From: Chitinivibrionales bacterium
Lineage (GTDB): Bacteria; Fibrobacterota; Chitinivibrionia; Chitinivibrionales; WJKA01
Direction of reading: 5' to 3'
Assembly: GCA_014728215.1 (NCBI GenBank)
Contig: WJLZ01000119.1
Location: 1 to 64,000, forward strand
Length of the DNA stretch: 64,000 bases
The notes under the pieces were generated by a model. That model worked only from the letters and a program-made list of their open reading frames with translations, did no database searches and was not told the DNA's origin. Made by a program: the position numbers and the translations under genes. Positions 52,472-63,519 of this stretch are shown piece by piece (positions within the stretch are counted from its first letter, which is position 1; every line of letters starts with the position of its first letter).

Positions 52472-53254
52472 TTATTCGTTTTCCATGAATCGAAAGGTAC
52501 TGGAACCAATTTCAATTCGATCTTTATGCTGAAGAAGATGGTTTTTTACTTTTTTGCCGTTGATTTTTGTTTTTCCAAGCAATTTTTTATTCGTCAACCA
52601 GACCCCGTCATCCTTTTTTTCAATCTCAACAATGGCTTCTTCGATAAACAGACCGTCGACAAAAATATCATCATTTTCAGAATTGCCCAATGTAAAATGT
52701 TCTTTATCGATACGATATACAACATGCTTGTTGGTTTCGATAAGTACCGGACAATTTGGTACAGGCCCTGTCTCGACTGGATCCTGTTCGAGCACTTCCT
52801 GTTTTTCGTCGCTCTTTCCTGCAACCTGTTCCCCGGAGGGCAGGGGAGACTCTCTCTGTATGGTATGCGGGGAAGCTTGTCTCGAAGCTGATTCCATTGT
52901 CGGTTCAAGGGCAAAATCGGTTTCTTCCCTGCTATCGGCAGAAGAATTGTCATTTGCAACAGGCACCATATTTTTAAAAATAATTGTATATTTTCCTATT
53001 GTTATTTTATCACCAACTCCAAGGGCGCCTTTGTTGATTTTTCTGTTATTTACAAAGGTGCCGTTCAGAGAATTGAGATCGATAATCTGGTAACCGCCTG
53101 ATGGATCTTTTTCGATACGGGCGTGCCGTCGGGAAACACCCATATTTACGATAGATATCGTATTTTCGGGCAAACGGCCGATGGTAATGACCGGTTCCTG
53201 AATATCGTATGTTTTCAGATGTTGATCATCGAATAAGAGAACAAACTCTGCCAT
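52472..53254 (-). CDS. Protein with N- and C-terminal FHA domains
   Basis: A 260-residue cytoplasmic protein. The first FHA domain (about 20-90) is complete: TIGRLPENTISIV, SRRHARIE, LNSLNGTFVNN. The second (about 185-255) is weaker (FTLGNSENDDIFV, then KTKINGKKV) and lacks the SxxH pair, so it may not bind phosphothreonine. A flexible Ser/Glu-rich linker joins them. It is the first gene of a pair with the phosphoesterase. Confidence 0.85.
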   Translation of the reverse strand: MAEFVLLFDDQHLKTYDIQEPVITIGRLPENTISIVNMGVSRRHARIEKDPSGGYQIIDLNSLNGTFVNNRKINKGALGVGDKITIGKYTIIFKNMVPVANDNSSADSREETDFALEPTMESASRQASPHTIQRESPLPSGEQVAGKSDEKQEVLEQDPVETGPVPNCPVLIETNKHVVYRIDKEHFTLGNSENDDIFVDGLFIEEAIVEIEKKDDGVWLTNKKLLGKTKINGKKVKNHLLQHKDRIEIGSSTFRFMENE

Positions 53255-54544: not shown

Positions 54545-57500
54545 ATGATCCCAAATGCATCCCATATTGCCGCTACCATACTCTCTGCAATCCCCCCACG
54601 ACTCGTTTCTGAGCGCGGTCGAGTGCTGCAAAAAATTGACGATTCAACTTTCCTGATAAAAACTTCATCCAGTAGTGTTACCATAAAAGTGAACAATGGC
54701 TCTCTGGATGCAGGAGAAGATGTACAGCTTACCCGTTTCGGTGATGAGATTTTAATTGAACGAAAAGAATCCGGCGATTCTTTTCACCGCCCAGGAAATA
54801 ATCAGTCGGCGGATTCGCTCAAGCTCGATACAGATCCCGCTACCGCAAAACTGAGGGCACAAATCGACACATTGTCCGAACAGGTACAGGGAAAAGCAAG
54901 CAGTGCCACGTATAAAGAAATCGAGCAGATAGTCAAAGCTGTATCTCAGGTTCTTAGCGGGAGAGATCTCAAGGCACAGGAAACAATCCGCTCCATTACT
55001 CAGATTTTATCCACAGTCTCCTCTCAAAGCGCTCCTGAAAATACCGAAAAAAATCGGGAATTATCAGAGCTTCTTTCCTTACTCAAAGAACAGCTTCAGA
55101 ACCGGGGGAAAGTGGAGCAAACAGAGGCGACGAAAGCTCCGGTTGTTGTTCTGAAAAGCGGAGAATTAAAAGAAGGGTTCTATTTCTTTGAGCGCGTTCG
55201 AGACCTTGCTTCATGGCCTCCCTATAAAGAAGGGCGGGCGAAAATCGATCCATCTGCCCTTATAGCACTGGCGGGCGAAAAGGGGGTGGCTGTCCGAACT
55301 ATGCCCTCCGGTAATGAAGAAACAAGGGCCTTTGTGATGAGTACTCGTGATGCTGCTGGGGAATTAGCTCATTTTATTAACTCCGAATTAAAAAATGTTG
55401 CCTTAAAACAGCTTTCACTCGAAGATATTTCGGTGCTTTTAAAGAGCCTGGACACGTTATCTTTTGAGGAGCTTCGTGCAATCGACCGATTTTTAGTTCG
55501 TGCCGCTACAACCGATCAGCCACCGGTAACACCCTCGATTCACGGCGCCCATAACTCCCTTCTCCAATGGATAACGACGGCATTGGAGAGTCGAATCAAT
55601 CTGGATTTGCTGCCCTTGAGTACTCCCTCAGTGGATGCATCGACAATTCCGGTATCATTCAATCAGATCACTGAACTGGGAGAAACTATCGGTATAGAGA
55701 TGAAACATTATAATGAAGATCAGATGTTCATCACGGAAAGCATTCTTTCTGAGGGCAATAAAAAAGAGCTTTTTCAGGCTTTAATCCGGCAATTGGGATA
55801 TATGCTCGAGCATGATCTGGCCCAGGTAAAAAGCGATATTGCTGAAGGCGAACGTGTTGGGGGTTCTCTTAAAAGTGAGCTTCTTCATGCCGGAAATATT
55901 GCAGAAACGATGAGTGTCGGTGGGGAAATCGATCCAAGCGGTGTGGCCGACAAAACAGGGGAGACCGTTTCTGAAGAACTGTCGGCAATTCGCATGGTCC
56001 TGTCCCGGATAAGCGGAGCTATTAACGAGCTTTCTTCAAAGGTGAGTTCTGTGTCAAATGAGCTCCTGGATCGTCTTCCGGAGCTGAAAGCTGAGGTTTT
56101 ACATACGTTGGTAAGTGGAAATGCTTCCGGATCGCAAGACAGCATTGAACAGGCCGTTTCAGGTGAGATTGCTGCAGTGCAAAAGAATGCTGATCAGTCT
56201 GACACGATTCGTGTCGTTGAAGCTCTTGTCCGGGAGATCGCCTTTCAAACAGATTCAATGATCCGGCAGGCTGAAGAAAACCGAAACAGCTTATTATCCG
56301 CCCTTCTCGGAAAGATTAAGCATGTTGCTGATGACATTCTCGGGAAAATAGAGGCGATTTTAACAACAGGGTCTCGTGCAGAAGAGGGCGGGCAAATCTC
56401 CCCCGAATCGACGAATACCGACAATACATCCTCACCTCCGGTTAAGCCGGAAAGCGCGCCGGTTCAAGAAATTGCCGGCCGGGTTTCCGAGATTATAGAT
56501 TCCATGCCCGAAAGACTTCCGCAGGAAATGACCCATCAAGCCGAAAAGCTCGTTCGTAAGGTGGAAAATCTTCTCCAGATATTCTCATCCAGACTTCCTG
56601 CATCTCAACCGCAGGCGGCATCAATCTCATTTGCCGAAATTGAAGCAGTTCTTCTTAATGCACACCGAACGATTCCCCGGCAACTGACAGAATCAGCCAA
56701 TGATATCAAAATTAATCTCGAAGATATCATGAACAGAATCAGCCGGGATATCCGTGAGTTGATCGAACGAATTGAAAACCGGATTCAATCTGCTCCAAAC
56801 CAATCGATGCCGGCAGATTCGGCCCAGACCAAAGAAATACTGGGTCATATCGAAAAGGTTCTGGAAACATTGCTTTCGCAGCTTTCACTGAAAACCCAGA
56901 CGCTTCAATCTGAAACTGCGGCAGTATTCAATACAACGATACGGGATATTGAGAAAGCGATTCAGGAGATGTTGGCTACCACCAGACAATCGGAAATCGA
57001 GTTCGACAAGGGTGCTCTCTCAAATGGGAGCCGTCAGTTAGCCTACTATTTTTCTCAGCAGATAGATGGATTACAAAAGCTGTCACAAAGCTTTAACGAG
57101 CAGTTTGATTCACTCGTACAATCGTTGCAACAGGATACGAATGCAATCAAACATGAAAATGTCTCTCATTTGAATCATATCAGCGGACAATTGTTTCCCG
57201 ATAAAAACAGTATTCCCAACGAGAATCTCAGCATTTCATCTTCGCAGGAGTACTCCAATTATCATTCTCCAAGTGAAAGCAGCGCTTTTTCTGCCCCCAT
57301 GGAAACAACAAGAGCCGGACAGATAGACAAACTTTTTGGTCAGTTGATTCAGGATATTCGATCTATCTTTACTACTTTTACCGAGCACCTCAAAAATTCT
57401 CCGGATTCTTTGCAGGAACAGGTGGGGAAAATTATCGAGAGAGTCGGTGAACAGGCCGAAAGTGTTCTACGAAACAATGCAGCGGGTTCGGCTGGAAGTG

Positions 57501-58321
57501 AAGGGCAGAAGTCTTTTGCCGCATCCGGGGAAAAGCCACCTCAGACATCAGAATTCACCCATCTTCTTTCCCAGGCAACACAATCGGCCGCCGGTGAAGA
57601 TGTTTCACTTCGCCCTCATCTGGAAAATGTCATTAAAAATGTTTTACAGCAGCTCGATACGCTCATTAGAAATCTTATCTCTACCCGCGAAAATATCGAG
57701 AAGGGGATGGTGCGTAATGGTGAAGCTGTTTTCAGGGATATGGCAAAAAATCTTGAGACATTGACGCGAGAATTAAGCCGTCACCTGGAAACGGCACAAT
57801 CGGAACGCTCGAATACTGGTGAGAAGTTGCCTCTTGAAATGTTTCGTCAGAATGTCGAAACTGCGCTGAACCGGTTCGAGTCCCTTCAAATGCTGGCCCG
57901 CCCGGTTACAACTGCTGAGGGCGAGCAGCAGATGCTCGCCGTGCCAATGAAAATTCAGGGGGAATGGACTGATATCAGAGTTATGATTGTAAAACAGCAT
58001 AACAAGGGGCGCAAAAAGGTTTCGCAGCAGAATTATTCGGTTGTAATCAATGTGGCGCCATCGTTTCTGGGAGAAATTACCGCACGTATAGAGTATCTTC
58101 CCCGGAAATCATTCAATCTGAAATTAGAAATAGAGAACAGTACAACTCGTCGGTGGTTCGAAAAAAACCGGGGCTCTCTGAGTGATGCTTTCCAGGAACT
58201 GGGGTTCAATTTTGCAAAAATTGATGTTTCCGGCCTAAAAAAGGGGAGTGGAGGGAACAGCGTTTTCTCGAATTCTGTATCTCAGACAAAATCCGACAGT
58301 GCGATTGACATGCGAATTTAA
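54545..58321 (+). CDS. Long FliK-like (flagellar hook-length control) protein
   Basis: A 1258-residue protein. The N-terminus (about 1-75) has a small beta-rich fold (GRVLQKIDDSTFLIKT, NGSLDAGEDVQLTRFGDE). A very long Ser/Glu/Gln-rich helical middle follows. The C-terminal 130 residues (from about 1120, LAVPMKIQGEWTDIRVMIVK, NVAPSFLGEITARIEYL) match the Flg_hook/FliK C-terminal fold. It is two to three times longer than common FliK. The next gene is a FlhB-C-like protein, the known partner type, so a role in export-substrate switching or the YlqG-like variant is likely. Only the C-terminal fold is a good match. Confidence 0.7.
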   Translation: MIPNASHIAATILSAIPPRLVSERGRVLQKIDDSTFLIKTSSSSVTIKVNNGSLDAGEDVQLTRFGDEILIERKESGDSFHRPGNNQSADSLKLDTDPATAKLRAQIDTLSEQVQGKASSATYKEIEQIVKAVSQVLSGRDLKAQETIRSITQILSTVSSQSAPENTEKNRELSELLSLLKEQLQNRGKVEQTEATKAPVVVLKSGELKEGFYFFERVRDLASWPPYKEGRAKIDPSALIALAGEKGVAVRTMPSGNEETRAFVMSTRDAAGELAHFINSELKNVALKQLSLEDISVLLKSLDTLSFEELRAIDRFLVRAATTDQPPVTPSIHGAHNSLLQWITTALESRINLDLLPLSTPSVDASTIPVSFNQITELGETIGIEMKHYNEDQMFITESILSEGNKKELFQALIRQLGYMLEHDLAQVKSDIAEGERVGGSLKSELLHAGNIAETMSVGGEIDPSGVADKTGETVSEELSAIRMVLSRISGAINELSSKVSSVSNELLDRLPELKAEVLHTLVSGNASGSQDSIEQAVSGEIAAVQKNADQSDTIRVVEALVREIAFQTDSMIRQAEENRNSLLSALLGKIKHVADDILGKIEAILTTGSRAEEGGQISPESTNTDNTSSPPVKPESAPVQEIAGRVSEIIDSMPERLPQEMTHQAEKLVRKVENLLQIFSSRLPASQPQAASISFAEIEAVLLNAHRTIPRQLTESANDIKINLEDIMNRISRDIRELIERIENRIQSAPNQSMPADSAQTKEILGHIEKVLETLLSQLSLKTQTLQSETAAVFNTTIRDIEKAIQEMLATTRQSEIEFDKGALSNGSRQLAYYFSQQIDGLQKLSQSFNEQFDSLVQSLQQDTNAIKHENVSHLNHISGQLFPDKNSIPNENLSISSSQEYSNYHSPSESSAFSAPMETTRAGQIDKLFGQLIQDIRSIFTTFTEHLKNSPDSLQEQVGKIIERVGEQAESVLRNNAAGSAGSEGQKSFAASGEKPPQTSEFTHLLSQATQSAAGEDVSLRPHLENVIKNVLQQLDTLIRNLISTRENIEKGMVRNGEAVFRDMAKNLETLTRELSRHLETAQSERSNTGEKLPLEMFRQNVETALNRFESLQMLARPVTTAEGEQQMLAVPMKIQGEWTDIRVMIVKQHNKGRKKVSQQNYSVVINVAPSFLGEITARIEYLPRKSFNLKLEIENSTTRRWFEKNRGSLSDAFQELGFNFAKIDVSGLKKGSGGNSVFSNSVSQTKSDSAIDMRI

Positions 58322-58342
58322 GCAGATTTCGGAAATGGATGT

Positions 58343-58633
58343 ATGAAAAAGCTAAATTCCGAAAACCGTGATCGAGCAGTTGCTCTTCGATACGATAGCG
58401 AGCAGGAGCAAGCTCCGCGCGTAGTGGCAAAAGGCGGGGGACATCTTGCAGAAAAAATCAAGCAAATTGCTCAGCAATACGGAATACCGATCCAGCGGGA
58501 CAATGATCTGGTCGATCTTCTTGCCCAGATTGATGTTGATCGTGAAATTCCGTCGGAATTATATGCTGCGGTTGCAGAAGTATTAAGCTGGATATATCGT
58601 GCAAACAATGAAATACGGAAGGAGCTTTTTTAA
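58343..58633 (+). CDS. FlhB C-terminal-domain-like protein (FhlX/YlqH type)
   Basis: A 96-residue cytoplasmic protein matching the FlhB export-gate tail: AVALRYDSEQEQAPRVVAKGGGHLAEKIKQIA, IPIQRDNDLVDLLAQID and the closing LYAAVAEVLSWIYR. The autocleavage NPTH before this region is not present because it has no membrane part. Such stand-alone copies pair with FliK-like proteins, as here, and as in the ylqG-ylqH genes of Bacillus. Its stop overlaps the next start by one base. Confidence 0.88.
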   Translation: MKKLNSENRDRAVALRYDSEQEQAPRVVAKGGGHLAEKIKQIAQQYGIPIQRDNDLVDLLAQIDVDREIPSELYAAVAEVLSWIYRANNEIRKELF

Positions 58634-59409
58634 TGAAAAAAGTGGTATTATGGTTGCTTTCGATGGTTGTTGTCCTTAGTGCCGAAAGCATGGATATTCT
58701 TTTTCTGGGGATTTTCGAAGGAGGTGCACCGTCCTTTGAAAAAAGCTATGAACAGATGCTGCGGGAAAATCTTGCCACTTTTGACGGCACCAATCTCATT
58801 GACCGGGCTCAAACAGAGAAATTCAAGAGTATGCTCGATTTCCGCGGTACACCCGTTTTATCCAAGACGCTGGCTCTTTCATTACAACGCCACTATATGG
58901 ATACCATACTGGTCGTGTGGGGAGAAATAAGAAATTACACCGTTACTCCCTACAGGCGAAATTTAATTGGAAGCGGGATTATCGGTAAGGTTACCGCATC
59001 GCTGACCATGTACAGTCTCCGTGATCGGGATATGGCTTTTGCGGGTGATATCGAATGTGAAATTGCAATAGGGAAAGATCTGTTTTATTTCGGTTCAATG
59101 AAAAAACTCCATATTTCTGCCGCCGAACAGAGCAAAATTATTGAAACACTTTCGGTTGAAGCAGCCAATAAATCGGCTCAGATGGTAAAAGCTGTTGCCC
59201 GGGCTAAAATTGAGCAGACAAGATTAGAATTCACGGGCGTAGAAGAATATAAAGAACCGTCAATATCCGATGTTTTTAATATTCCGAGTGTTGAAGGGTC
59301 CGAGGTCGGTTTTGGTGAAGAGGATACGGAGCAGTCGGAACCGTCGGTGCCGGAAGCTCCCAGTGAAGTATCCTCTGAGGAACCGCAAGACCAGAATGCG
59401 CCGGAATAA
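58633..59409 (+). CDS. Exported protein of unknown function, acidic tail
   Basis: A 258-residue protein with a signal peptide (about 1-18). The middle (ENLATFDGTNLIDRAQTEKF, then SLTMYSLRDRDMAFAGDIE) has the rhythm of CsgG/TolB-N-like periplasmic domains, but I cannot assign the family with confidence. The last 40 residues are acidic and Pro/Ser-rich. Its start overlaps the FlhB-C gene stop, so it belongs to the flagellar-type operon. Confidence 0.6.
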   Translation: MKKVVLWLLSMVVVLSAESMDILFLGIFEGGAPSFEKSYEQMLRENLATFDGTNLIDRAQTEKFKSMLDFRGTPVLSKTLALSLQRHYMDTILVVWGEIRNYTVTPYRRNLIGSGIIGKVTASLTMYSLRDRDMAFAGDIECEIAIGKDLFYFGSMKKLHISAAEQSKIIETLSVEAANKSAQMVKAVARAKIEQTRLEFTGVEEYKEPSISDVFNIPSVEGSEVGFGEEDTEQSEPSVPEAPSEVSSEEPQDQNAPE

Positions 59410-59618: not shown

Positions 59619-59954
59619 ATGCCGGAGATTGGCTCATACAAGAATGTATTTGACGACCAGAATGAGTTCAATAAGCTTAACGACCTGATCCTGGGCGCAA
59701 TACAGGAGTTCTCGAGTTACCGCAAAGGAAATCTTACCTATGGTGAAATTATGTTTGTCATGGAGTGTATTCTCGATTCCCTGCGGTCATCGTCCGAGAA
59801 AGATGCTCAATTGACTTCAAAAATCAAAGGCGCCGAAGGACCGCCAACATTCACTACCTTGATGTCGATTACCTCCCGGCTTGTTGAGCGATTAGTTAAA
59901 AAAGGTGTAATCACTTCAAATGATGAAACTTTCATTCTTCATGGGGAAGAATAA
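59619..59954 (+). CDS. Hypothetical 111-residue protein ahead of the partner-switching genes
   Basis: I do not recognise it. It is a small soluble, helical protein (FDDQNEFNKLNDLILGAIQEF, GEIMFVMECILDSL). AAGGAG precedes the ATG. It starts a four-gene run with two HATPase proteins and a STAS protein, so it may be a target or input of that module. Confidence 0.65.
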   Translation: MPEIGSYKNVFDDQNEFNKLNDLILGAIQEFSSYRKGNLTYGEIMFVMECILDSLRSSSEKDAQLTSKIKGAEGPPTFTTLMSITSRLVERLVKKGVITSNDETFILHGEE

Positions 59955-59996
59955 ATTGATGTGTGTTATTTCATTTTCACGGAGGATTGAGTACTG

Positions 59997-60479
59997 GTGA
60001 ATTCAAGCAACAAGAGAAATGAATATAAAATCAAACTCCAGTTTCCCGGCGATAGTGAGTACATTCCTCCTATCAGAAAATTTGTAGCGGAAACGCTGCA
60101 GGCATGCAATTTTAACCCGAAATTTGCTTACAGGTCCGAGATCATTGTTGATGAAGTTTGTAATAATGCAGTCTTATACGGATGCAAGTCATCCGAATCA
60201 ATGGTGGAACTTTTATTCAATATCTATCCAAACCGGACCGAATTCATTATCAAAGATCCGGGCGGCTCGAAGGATGATATTGATCGTTTAAGAAAAACTG
60301 TTGAAAAACGGGGTGAAAGTGTCCAGCTCGAACCTCGCAGTAAGAAAGATAAACTGGGTCTGGAAATTGTTCGCATGCTTTCGGAGGAGATGGATTTTCA
60401 GATTGATGAGAATAATCTTACCACTGTGCGGGTGGTAAGGAAAAAAGACGATATAGAACCTGCACCCCAGGAAAAATAA
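59997..60479 (+). CDS. RsbW/SpoIIAB-type HATPase (anti-sigma kinase-like)
   Basis: A 160-residue protein with one HATPase_c_2 domain. The N-box is IVDEVCNNAVLYG, the G1-like block FIIKDPGGSKDD and the G2-like block KDKLGLEIVRML. Proteins of this kind bind and inhibit a sigma factor or other target and phosphorylate the STAS antagonist. The start is GTG with GGAGG 11 bases upstream. Its N-box is nearly identical to that in the next gene, so one domain copied the other. Confidence 0.85.
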   Translation: MNSSNKRNEYKIKLQFPGDSEYIPPIRKFVAETLQACNFNPKFAYRSEIIVDEVCNNAVLYGCKSSESMVELLFNIYPNRTEFIIKDPGGSKDDIDRLRKTVEKRGESVQLEPRSKKDKLGLEIVRMLSEEMDFQIDENNLTTVRVVRKKDDIEPAPQEK

Positions 60480-60507
60480 CTTTTCAGGAAAAGAAAGAGC
60501 ATAATCA

Positions 60508-61302
60508 ATGGAATCAATGCGCATTGAGATATGGCAAACTCAAGATACTCCCAACACAACTGTTTTGCATGTCATAAATGAACTTGATGGAGCAAGTGTC
60601 GAGAAACTCAATGAGGTATTCGATGAAGTCCTGCATAAGTATCCGAGGTATGTCATTGCCGATCTTTCTCAGGTAACTCTTTTTTCTTCTGCCGCGCTTG
60701 GCCGCTTTATGGGATTCAAAAAGCGCCTTGTTGAGAGCAAAGGAGATCTGGTTTTTACCGGGTTAACGCTTGATATCAGGACCCAGCTGTCGTCGTTGGG
60801 CGCCTTTAAAATATTCGAATCCTACCCCAACGTACGATCGGCGGTAAATGCTTATAAATGGGAACATGAAGGAATTTCTCAGTCGCTCACCCTTTCTTTC
60901 CCTCCCGAGCTTCACTTTGTCCCGCCGGTCCGTCAGCTGGTCAGCAGGATTGCCAAACAGAAAGGATACAGCAGCCGCGATTCTTTTCGTTTGGAGACCA
61001 TTGTTGATGAAGTCTGTAATAATGCGGTAGAACATGGTGATGCCGATGCCTATCGTGATATAGAACTGTTTCTCGGGATCGACCGTGAAAAAGTTGAAAT
61101 CAAGGTAATCAATACCAGTAATCCGGCTAAGGTTGAAGTACTGAAACAATTGTCAAACTCAATTTCGAAAACTGCTGTTCCTCAGCTTGACGACAAACGG
61201 GGACGGGGGCTTACACTTATTAAAATGCTGTCAAATAATTTATCAATAGATTTTTCTGAAAACGGAACAACAGTCCATGTTACTCGATTAAGAGGGGATT
61301 AG
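60508..61302 (+). CDS. Fused STAS antagonist and HATPase kinase
   Basis: A 264-residue fusion. Residues about 8-115 are a STAS domain; the usual DSSG stretch reads LFSSAALGRF, so a phosphorylatable Ser may remain but the glycine is lost. Residues about 125-264 are an HATPase domain: N-box IVDEVCNNAVEHG with Glu168, Asn171 and Asn172, then DDKRGRGLTLIKML. In classic systems (SpoIIAA/SpoIIAB, RsbV/RsbW) these are separate, mutually binding proteins; here they are in one chain, which could make switching intramolecular. A free kinase and a free STAS protein flank it. Confidence 0.87.
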   Translation: MESMRIEIWQTQDTPNTTVLHVINELDGASVEKLNEVFDEVLHKYPRYVIADLSQVTLFSSAALGRFMGFKKRLVESKGDLVFTGLTLDIRTQLSSLGAFKIFESYPNVRSAVNAYKWEHEGISQSLTLSFPPELHFVPPVRQLVSRIAKQKGYSSRDSFRLETIVDEVCNNAVEHGDADAYRDIELFLGIDREKVEIKVINTSNPAKVEVLKQLSNSISKTAVPQLDDKRGRGLTLIKMLSNNLSIDFSENGTTVHVTRLRGD

Positions 61303-61305
61303 GAT

Positions 61306-61662
61306 ATGGAGTCTCAAATTGATCTTGAATATAAAGATCTAAAAGGCGTGCAAACAGCGAAAGTAGTCAAATTTGTCGGCGACCTTGATGCCACCAATGT
61401 TGAGTTTGTGCTTGAAAAAATATGCAATTTAATGGATGATGGCTTTGTTAATATTGTTGCCGATTTTAAAAAATTGCGCTATGTGAACAGTACAGGGCTG
61501 GGTGTACTTTTACATTTCAACAAATCCTCAAAAGAAAAAGGTGGAAGCTTCAAAATTGCCAATGTCAATGAAAATGTCTACGAGATCATCGAGATTATCG
61601 GCGCATCTTCGCTCCTGGAAATTTATGATGATGTTGATGAAGCAATTGAAGCGCTGAAATAA
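61306..61662 (+). CDS. STAS-domain anti-anti-sigma factor (SpoIIAA/RsbV-like)
   Basis: A 118-residue single STAS domain. The phosphorylation site region is RYVNSTGLGVLLHF, with Ser in the normal place. Length is typical. It starts three bases after the fusion gene. It is the expected substrate of the free HATPase and perhaps of the fusion. Confidence 0.9.
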   Translation: MESQIDLEYKDLKGVQTAKVVKFVGDLDATNVEFVLEKICNLMDDGFVNIVADFKKLRYVNSTGLGVLLHFNKSSKEKGGSFKIANVNENVYEIIEIIGASSLLEIYDDVDEAIEALK

Positions 61663-61770: not shown

Positions 61771-63519
61771 ATGAAGATGTTTTTACAGATGTGTCTTATT
61801 AGCCTGGTTGTAATCGGATTGAATTGCCAGAAAAAGGGTTCAACCGAAAAGGAACTGGTTAAAATCGGCAGAAAAGTTTTCACTCAACAGGATTACGATG
61901 CATTTCAGCAAATGCGAATGAATTATCCGATGCGAATGACCGGTATATTTCCCGGAAACCGTTCGAATATTACTTTTATGGTAGAGACTGAAGTCGTCTA
62001 TCGGGAAAAGGCAAGGGGAAGCGAAATTTACCGTGAAGTGATCAACGGAGACGACTTGAAATGGAAAAAGAAGTTTTACCCGGCTCAGCTTTATCTCAGA
62101 GATATTCTGGATCGAAATCTCGGGTTTTCCAATGATAAGATCAAAGAGTATTACAATAAGCACAAAAGCAGGTTCAAAGATACAGTAAAAGTATATGACA
62201 CACTTAAGGTTGCAAAAACTGAAGAGGAGATGGAGGACACAAGCGATACCGGCACATCAAAAGACTCACTTGTTGCCCGCGACTCTGTTTATACCAAAGC
62301 GCTTGTGCAGGTACGTCCGGAAATAGTTGAAGAGATGTTTGTCAAAGAAAATCCTCCCTCACCTGAGCATTATGAGAAATTTGTCGCAGAAAACGATTCA
62401 ACACAAATCGATTCTGTAAAAGCCCATAAAGAATGGATCTATTCGATCAAAAATGATCTCCCGACTTTTTTCATGAAAAAAACATACAAAGAAATATACA
62501 AGGAGGAATTCCCCGAATCTATGAGCGAATGGTATGGTAAGGGGAAAAAGATTACTCCTGATGATATGGAAGTAATTCTCGGCTGGATTCCTGAGGCACA
62601 ACGGGAACATTACAGGGAAGATTCCGCCAAAATCAAAAATCTTGCAGAATGGTTGCTCAAATGGGAACTCTTTTCGAAGAGGGCCGAAGATATCGGTTAT
62701 TCAACTACGCAGGAAATGAAACAGATTCTCGATTGGGTTGAAAAATATGATGTTACTGATAAATATATCGAAGAAAAGCTTTATGAAAAAGCCGAAGAGG
62801 CCGTAACCCTCGATACCGCAATGTGTATGTATGCATTCTGGGATGACCGGGGCGCCTACAATCCACCTCCTGATACGGAAGCCCTTAAAAAAGCCTTCGA
62901 GCGGTATAATGAAAAAGAAGTGGAAATGAAACTTGAGGGAAAAATCTACGAAATGAGAAGCAAAGCAGGCGTCAGCTTCCTCCAGGAAGATTTCAACGAT
63001 GAGAAAGACAAGGATCCCGACACGCTTCTCGCCAAGGCGAATACAGCCCGCGATTCGGGTAAAACCGACGAAGCCGAGAATCTGTATAGTACCCTCGTCA
63101 AGTCCTTTCCGTTTACCGAAGAAGGGCATGAGGCCCTGGCCGAATATGCCAAGATCCAGACCGAAAAAGAACGCTATCACAAAGCTATCAGAAACTACCG
63201 TAAATACCTCATGCTCGGCGATGCTGGCAGCACGAAGAAATGCAATACCTTTTTCATGGTGGGCTTTATTTACGATGAATATCTCAGCAAGCCCGAAATG
63301 GCTGAAATCAATTACAAATGGGTATTGGAACATTCACCCGATTGTGAACTTGCCGATGATGCTGAATTCATGGTGCAGCATCTTGATGAGCCGATGACCA
63401 GTGTCGAAGAGCTTCGGGGTGAAGCCGAACGTCAGGGCAGAATCATTGAAGATACCGAGCCTGTTGAGGAATCATCGGTTGATGCCATGAAAGAAGAAGC
63501 TGCAGAAACACAATCATAA
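61771..63519 (+). CDS. Probable lipoprotein with SurA-like N-terminus and TPR C-terminus
   Basis: A 582-residue exported protein. A hydrophobic segment ends in IGLNCQKKG, a near-lipobox with Cys19. Residues 25-135 look like the SurA/PpiD chaperone N-terminal region (KIGRKVFTQQDYDAF, KEYYNKHKSRFKD), but the PPIase core is not seen clearly. The last 200 residues contain three to four TPRs (ARDSGKTDEAENLYSTLVKSFP, YHKAIRNYRKYLMLG). The middle is helical and charged. A periplasmic chaperone or assembly role is likely. A strong terminator follows. Confidence 0.7.
   Translation: MKMFLQMCLISLVVIGLNCQKKGSTEKELVKIGRKVFTQQDYDAFQQMRMNYPMRMTGIFPGNRSNITFMVETEVVYREKARGSEIYREVINGDDLKWKKKFYPAQLYLRDILDRNLGFSNDKIKEYYNKHKSRFKDTVKVYDTLKVAKTEEEMEDTSDTGTSKDSLVARDSVYTKALVQVRPEIVEEMFVKENPPSPEHYEKFVAENDSTQIDSVKAHKEWIYSIKNDLPTFFMKKTYKEIYKEEFPESMSEWYGKGKKITPDDMEVILGWIPEAQREHYREDSAKIKNLAEWLLKWELFSKRAEDIGYSTTQEMKQILDWVEKYDVTDKYIEEKLYEKAEEAVTLDTAMCMYAFWDDRGAYNPPPDTEALKKAFERYNEKEVEMKLEGKIYEMRSKAGVSFLQEDFNDEKDKDPDTLLAKANTARDSGKTDEAENLYSTLVKSFPFTEEGHEALAEYAKIQTEKERYHKAIRNYRKYLMLGDAGSTKKCNTFFMVGFIYDEYLSKPEMAEINYKWVLEHSPDCELADDAEFMVQHLDEPMTSVEELRGEAERQGRIIEDTEPVEESSVDAMKEEAAETQS

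Follow-up and report, generated by a model that had tools for sequence, protein, structure and literature searches.

Organization of the locus

Four open reading frames, A to D, lie on the plus strand between positions 59619 and 61662 of the window, the 64,000-nucleotide stretch of contig WJLZ01000119.1 analysed here, with intergenic gaps of 42 bp (A/B), 28 bp (B/C) and 3 bp (C/D). The first-pass annotation had read them as a partner-switching module in which a STAS-HATPase fusion is flanked by free copies of both domains, and this reading was supported, the Pfam matches being above the family cut-offs (27.4 bits for HATPase_c_2 and 22.6 bits for STAS). Gene B (59997..60479, 160 aa) encodes a free RsbW-like HATPase (HATPase_c_2, 54 bits) whose N-box reads IVDEVCNNAV in sequence and alignment (60144..60173), with E53 and N57 intact, as is Asp87 of the G1 box. 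Gene C (60508..61302) encodes the 264-aa fusion protein, whose residues 10-112 match STAS (50.2 bits) and whose residues 131-259 match HATPase_c_2 (65.4 bits), so that the profile search proposed for its two halves returned a match above cut-off for each. Gene D (61306..61662) encodes a free STAS protein of 118 aa (65.4 bits), whose phosphoacceptor Ser62 (61489-61491) lies in the motif NSTGLG. A promoter and terminator scan at the locus gave no signal above chance.

Gene A (59619..59954) encodes an all-helical orphan of 111 aa. It had been described as a small protein of no recognizable family, and indeed we found no sequence match in Pfam, NCBIfam or the PDB. Its orthologues occupy the equivalent position at about 40 loci, always immediately 5' of B where present, and their alignment has 29 invariant columns; the motif YRNVFDD...NLTYGEIMFVMECILD is found in this protein. 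The AF2 model consists of four helices (pLDDT 82), for which the PDB held no fold match. On the other side of the module gene E (61771..63519, plus strand), encoding a lipoprotein with TPR repeats, follows D in nearly all loci. The TPR match is weak in the window, orthologues of E carry PPIC-type PPIase domains, and those at L091 and L106 carry Rotamase_2/YfiO.

The AF2 model of C, built from 40 sequences, had a pLDDT of 90.7 and a pTM of 0.74, and in it the final STAS helix (109-121) reaches the first HATPase strand (125) within three residues. Profile searches of the PDB matched the HATPase half to RsbW and the STAS half to SpoIIAA, while Foldseek matched the two halves to SpoIIAA and SpoIIAB. 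LvrC of Leptospira was the top Foldseek match of C and, like C, has an RsbW-like HATPase preceded by a regulatory alpha/beta domain; however, that domain is Rec and not STAS, and the domain orientation differs (rmsd 15). We rejected this Rec-HATPase as a relative of C and regard the likeness as one of fold only.

In the usual scheme a partner switch consists of three diffusible proteins. The Bacillus pairs RsbV/RsbW and SpoIIAA/SpoIIAB, which gave the best PDB sequence and fold matches of the module, belong to the same two domain families and share with it the N-box Glu/Asn pair, and D keeps the equivalent of SpoIIAA Ser58, as does C in most orthologues. The module differs from them in that antagonist and kinase are fused, with STAS first, and placed between extra free copies, in that the G1 Asp of C is replaced by Asn, and in that no sigma factor lies adjacent. 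The earlier statement that antagonist and kinase are separate proteins in known switches did not hold, since Rv1364c of M. tuberculosis (PAS-PP2C-kinase-STAS) joins phosphatase, kinase and STAS in one chain, in which kinase and STAS act on each other (PMC10950880, PMC12143880). An antagonist and a kinase in one chain are thus already known. Rv1364c has the opposite domain order, its own phosphatase and sensor, and no free B or D operon partners, while C consists of STAS followed by HATPase only and does not form a PP2C-HATPase-STAS chain.

Distribution and origin of the fusion

Among the 168 genomes surveyed in the phylum, about 69 have a full-length or strong homologue of C (26-59% identity); public names place them in Fibrobacterota and Raymondbacteria. 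The phylum includes cellulose degraders. The survey of gene order that had been suggested for this locus showed that B usually lies directly upstream and D directly downstream, the genes being arranged B-C-D-E in nearly every case, and the longer order FliK, FlhB C-terminal domain, exported protein, A, B, C, D, E recurs across orders. This recurrence of homologues and of gene order across the phylum argues that the STAS-HATPase fusion is genuine and ancient and conserved across Fibrobacterota. A frameshift or assembly error joining two separate genes, which had been named as a possible source of the fusion, is ruled out, as the same single frame is found in about 69 genomes.

The two N-boxes, in B and in C, both read IVDEVCNNAV, as the first-pass annotation had pointed out, and from this it had proposed a duplication followed by fusion. 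The identity of the motifs stands, but a recent local duplication of the HATPase was rejected by the maximum-likelihood tree, which was made with a quick search and whose root is unsure. B and the C-HATPase are about 32% identical and form separate phylum-wide families, and the C-HATPase groups, apart from B, with free HATPases of Elusimicrobia, Omnitrophota and Patescibacteria (97 SH-aLRT). Because the families are separate and that of C clusters with HATPases that are unfused in other phyla, the tree suggests that the two paralogues are old, their kinase domains having diverged before the origin of the phylum. The shared IVDEVCNNAV would then reflect retained conservation of the motif and is no mark of recent copying.

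The C-type HATPases of unfused relatives adjoin free STAS genes, and at L172 of Omnitrophota and L176 of Elusimicrobia separate neighbouring genes encode these domains, in the order STAS-HATPase-STAS. The fusion would most simply have arisen by joining neighbouring STAS and HATPase genes, which are still separate in these two loci. At the Elusimicrobia locus (L176:6782-8860) STAS and HATPase genes alternate, five in all (STAS-HATPase-STAS-HATPase-STAS), as a multi-copy partner switch without fusion, and Peregrinibacteria/Peribacteria of the Patescibacteria (L177-L191) have a conserved HATPase and STAS pair related to C-D. Fused relatives were also found in genomes named as Gemmatimonadetes (L154) and Cloacimonetes (L167), and both lie on the C-HATPase side of the tree. 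At these loci (L154:6469-9189 and L167:6391-11720) genes for a solute-binding protein and a HAMP-DUF4388 membrane protein precede fused C and D, and in L167 a GAF-SpoIIE phosphatase gene lies immediately 3' of D.

Residue conservation and the putative roles of B, C and D

The catalytic Glu168 and Asn172 of C, which lie in its N-box (61000..61029), are present in 58/58 orthologues, as are the G2 glycines G232 and G234, and the RGRG loop is nearly invariant. The invariance of Glu168 and Asn172 disfavours C as a plainly decayed pseudokinase. At the G1 box, 57 of the 58 orthologues have Asn (Asn202 in the window, 61111..61113) at the position of an Asp which in GHKL kinases contacts adenine, and ATP binding by C could therefore be weak or altered. 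The Asp is present in L154, in L167 and in all aligned unfused relatives outside the phylum.

Ser61 of the fused STAS (60688..60690), in the motif SSAALG, corresponds to SpoIIAA Ser58 in HMMER alignments to 1th8/1tid and is kept in 52/58 orthologues. The observation that this site lacks the usual Gly was borne out, none of the 58 orthologues having Gly at the SpoIIAA Gly60 position. The Ser has been lost in family f4 and in L099; L154 and L167 have another residue there, and in L151 (genome G014), on one metagenome contig, C is a 160-aa HATPase without its STAS half. The losses of Ser, together with the absence of the whole STAS half in L151, argue that the fused STAS is not an essential substrate. 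The free STAS protein D, on the other hand, has its phosphoacceptor Ser in all aligned orthologues, B-decayed lineages included.

In most lineages, the window included, B retains every kinase motif, and the G1 Asp is kept in 36 of the 38 copies with an intact N-box. The N-box Glu/Asn pair was nevertheless lost in 18 of the 56 detected copies of B. On the tree of C+D these losses, counted with one extra locus without detectable B, cannot be explained by fewer than three separate changes, each of them required by supported branches: an E to A substitution in genus g7, a truncation that affects part of family f9, and a loss in g17. B of L151 also has an E to A change.

Read most simply, the pattern of residue loss makes C the indispensable kinase and D the indispensable substrate, whereas catalysis by B and phosphorylation of the fused STAS can be dispensed with. 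It suggests that the fused C, rather than the adjacent free kinase B, would be the working enzyme. Our preferred reading, which we put a little short of an even chance, is that C acts as the dedicated kinase of D with its tethered STAS as a brake, and B as the target-binding paralogue. The HATPase half of C would phosphorylate D on its conserved Ser, and the tethered STAS half, within the chain or within a dimer, would contend with D for this face of the HATPase, as a brake or docking arm. B would be an anti-sigma-like target binder, captured by D or by C, whose own kinase activity is dispensable, and D would be dephosphorylated by SpoIIE-type PP2C phosphatases encoded elsewhere. No PP2C gene was found at the locus, and the window's genome encodes five phosphatases of the SpoIIE type.

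These five phosphatases, and the PP2C gene directly after D in L167, support the preferred reading, as do the relatives in other phyla, which have one C-type HATPase next to STAS genes. Further support comes from M. smegmatis, in which RsbW2 phosphorylates RsfB and does not bind SigF, RsbW1 binds SigF but has no kinase activity, and antagonism of RsbW1 comes from RsbW3, which heterodimerizes with it (PMC7693655, PMC10950880). As the module may do, the RsbW1/RsbW2/RsbW3-RsfB system distributes target binding, kinase activity and heterodimerization over several RsbW paralogues (PMC7693655), but its members are separate single-domain proteins encoded at scattered loci, with SigF as the known target. 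In our preferred reading C would resemble RsbW2 and B would resemble RsbW1. The main reason for doubt over this reading is the Asn202 change; the intact kinase motifs of B in most lineages and the lack of an adjacent target also count against it, as does the fact that the STAS loss of L151 is known from one metagenome contig.

The G1 change also favours a different assignment, in which B is both kinase and anti-target factor. C, a pseudokinase with little catalytic activity, would heterodimerize with B through its HATPase half and present an antagonist through its STAS half, which would make it a two-headed antagonist of B. The Asp that is almost always Asn in C is kept in nearly all intact copies of B, it is also kept in L154 and L167, whose C relatives occur without B, which would fit a decay of C once B had taken over, and in M. 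smegmatis RsbW3 an RsbW paralogue is already known to act through a heterodimer. However, the catalytic Glu/Asn of C show no drift while the N-box of B decayed three times, and the B-decayed lineages would be left with no canonical kinase at the locus, yet keep the Ser of D. We regard this assignment as rather unlikely.

We are more doubtful of a two-step cascade like that from RsbT-RsbS/R to RsbW-RsbV, in which B and C would both be active with different specificity, B on the fused STAS and C on D. Most genomes do keep both N-boxes and a Ser in both STAS domains, but the losses of the fused Ser and of the B N-box are uncoupled: g7 and most of f9 lack the B motif and have the Ser, while g15-g16 lack the Ser and have B.

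Literature searches on Fibrobacter partner switching or STAS-HATPase fusions found no direct account. What appears to be new, judged from the aligned sequences, is the repeated loss of the B N-box in three lineages beside an invariant Glu/Asn pair in C and a conserved Ser in D, the loss of the fused-STAS Ser in several lineages, and the near-fixed Asp-to-Asn change at the G1 box of C, not seen in relatives outside the phylum. A phylum-wide welded antagonist-kinase, with a free paralogue losing catalysis, offers natural mutants both for the effect of tethering on the switch and for how kinase and target-binding roles separate, and the module offers a testable, predicted asymmetry between its two kinases B and C.

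Flagellar linkage and the target of the module

Upstream of the module, also on the plus strand, lie genes for a FliK-like hook-length protein (54545..58321; Flg_hook, 32.5 bits; detected at 9 loci), for the C-terminal domain only of FlhB (58343..58633; PF01312, 82.4 bits; 24 loci) and for a conserved exported protein of 258 aa without a Pfam match (58633..59409; 33 loci). Neither a sigma factor nor any other target adjoins the module or was found among its conserved neighbours. From the flagellar-type neighbours a motility target had been suggested; the conserved linkage to FliK and FlhB-C stood, while the motility target did not, as C-D is kept in genomes without FlhA or FliA. Among 168 genomes 57 had both C and FlhA, 12 had C only, 5 had FlhA only and 94 had neither, a count that ignores phylogeny. 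Ten of the 12 genomes with C and without FlhA (G032, G139-G144 and G147-G149) also lack FliA above cut-off, and nine non-flagellated genomes of genera g30, g33 and g34 keep C-D. The near-complete genome G032 (L080) lacks FlhA, FliA, FliK, FlhB-C and the exported neighbour, and retains A-E; its congener G031 keeps FlhA, FliA, FliK and FlhB-C.

The flagellar link is thus real but not obligatory. That the module controls the flagellum specifically, through FliA or through the FliK/FlhB-C export switch, is in our view very unlikely: the linkage in many lineages and the co-occurrence of C with FlhA speak for such control, but the 12 genomes without FlhA led us to reject a strictly flagellar role, and G032 has kept A-E without any of the flagellar neighbours. 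The persistence of C-D in non-flagellated genomes argues that the target is not the flagellum alone, and from the constant neighbour E, an envelope lipoprotein, our guess is a target in the cell envelope. A fuller picture, which we consider unlikely in all its parts, is a self-tethered switch. C would be an active serine kinase of the GHKL type, its nucleotide pocket carrying Asn and perhaps differing in nucleotide affinity or specificity, and its own attached STAS would compete with the diffusible D. B would be an old paralogue that has repeatedly become a kinase-dead binding partner, and the target would be a function in the cell envelope or in growth that predates the flagellar link.

The 1258-aa FliK-like protein and the stand-alone FlhB C-terminal domain that follows it (54545-58633) lie apart from the main flagellar cluster, and FlhA and FliA of the window's genome are found on contig C129. 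Near the operon, on the minus strand (52475-53254), an FHA-domain protein is encoded which also matches the YscD cytoplasmic domain.
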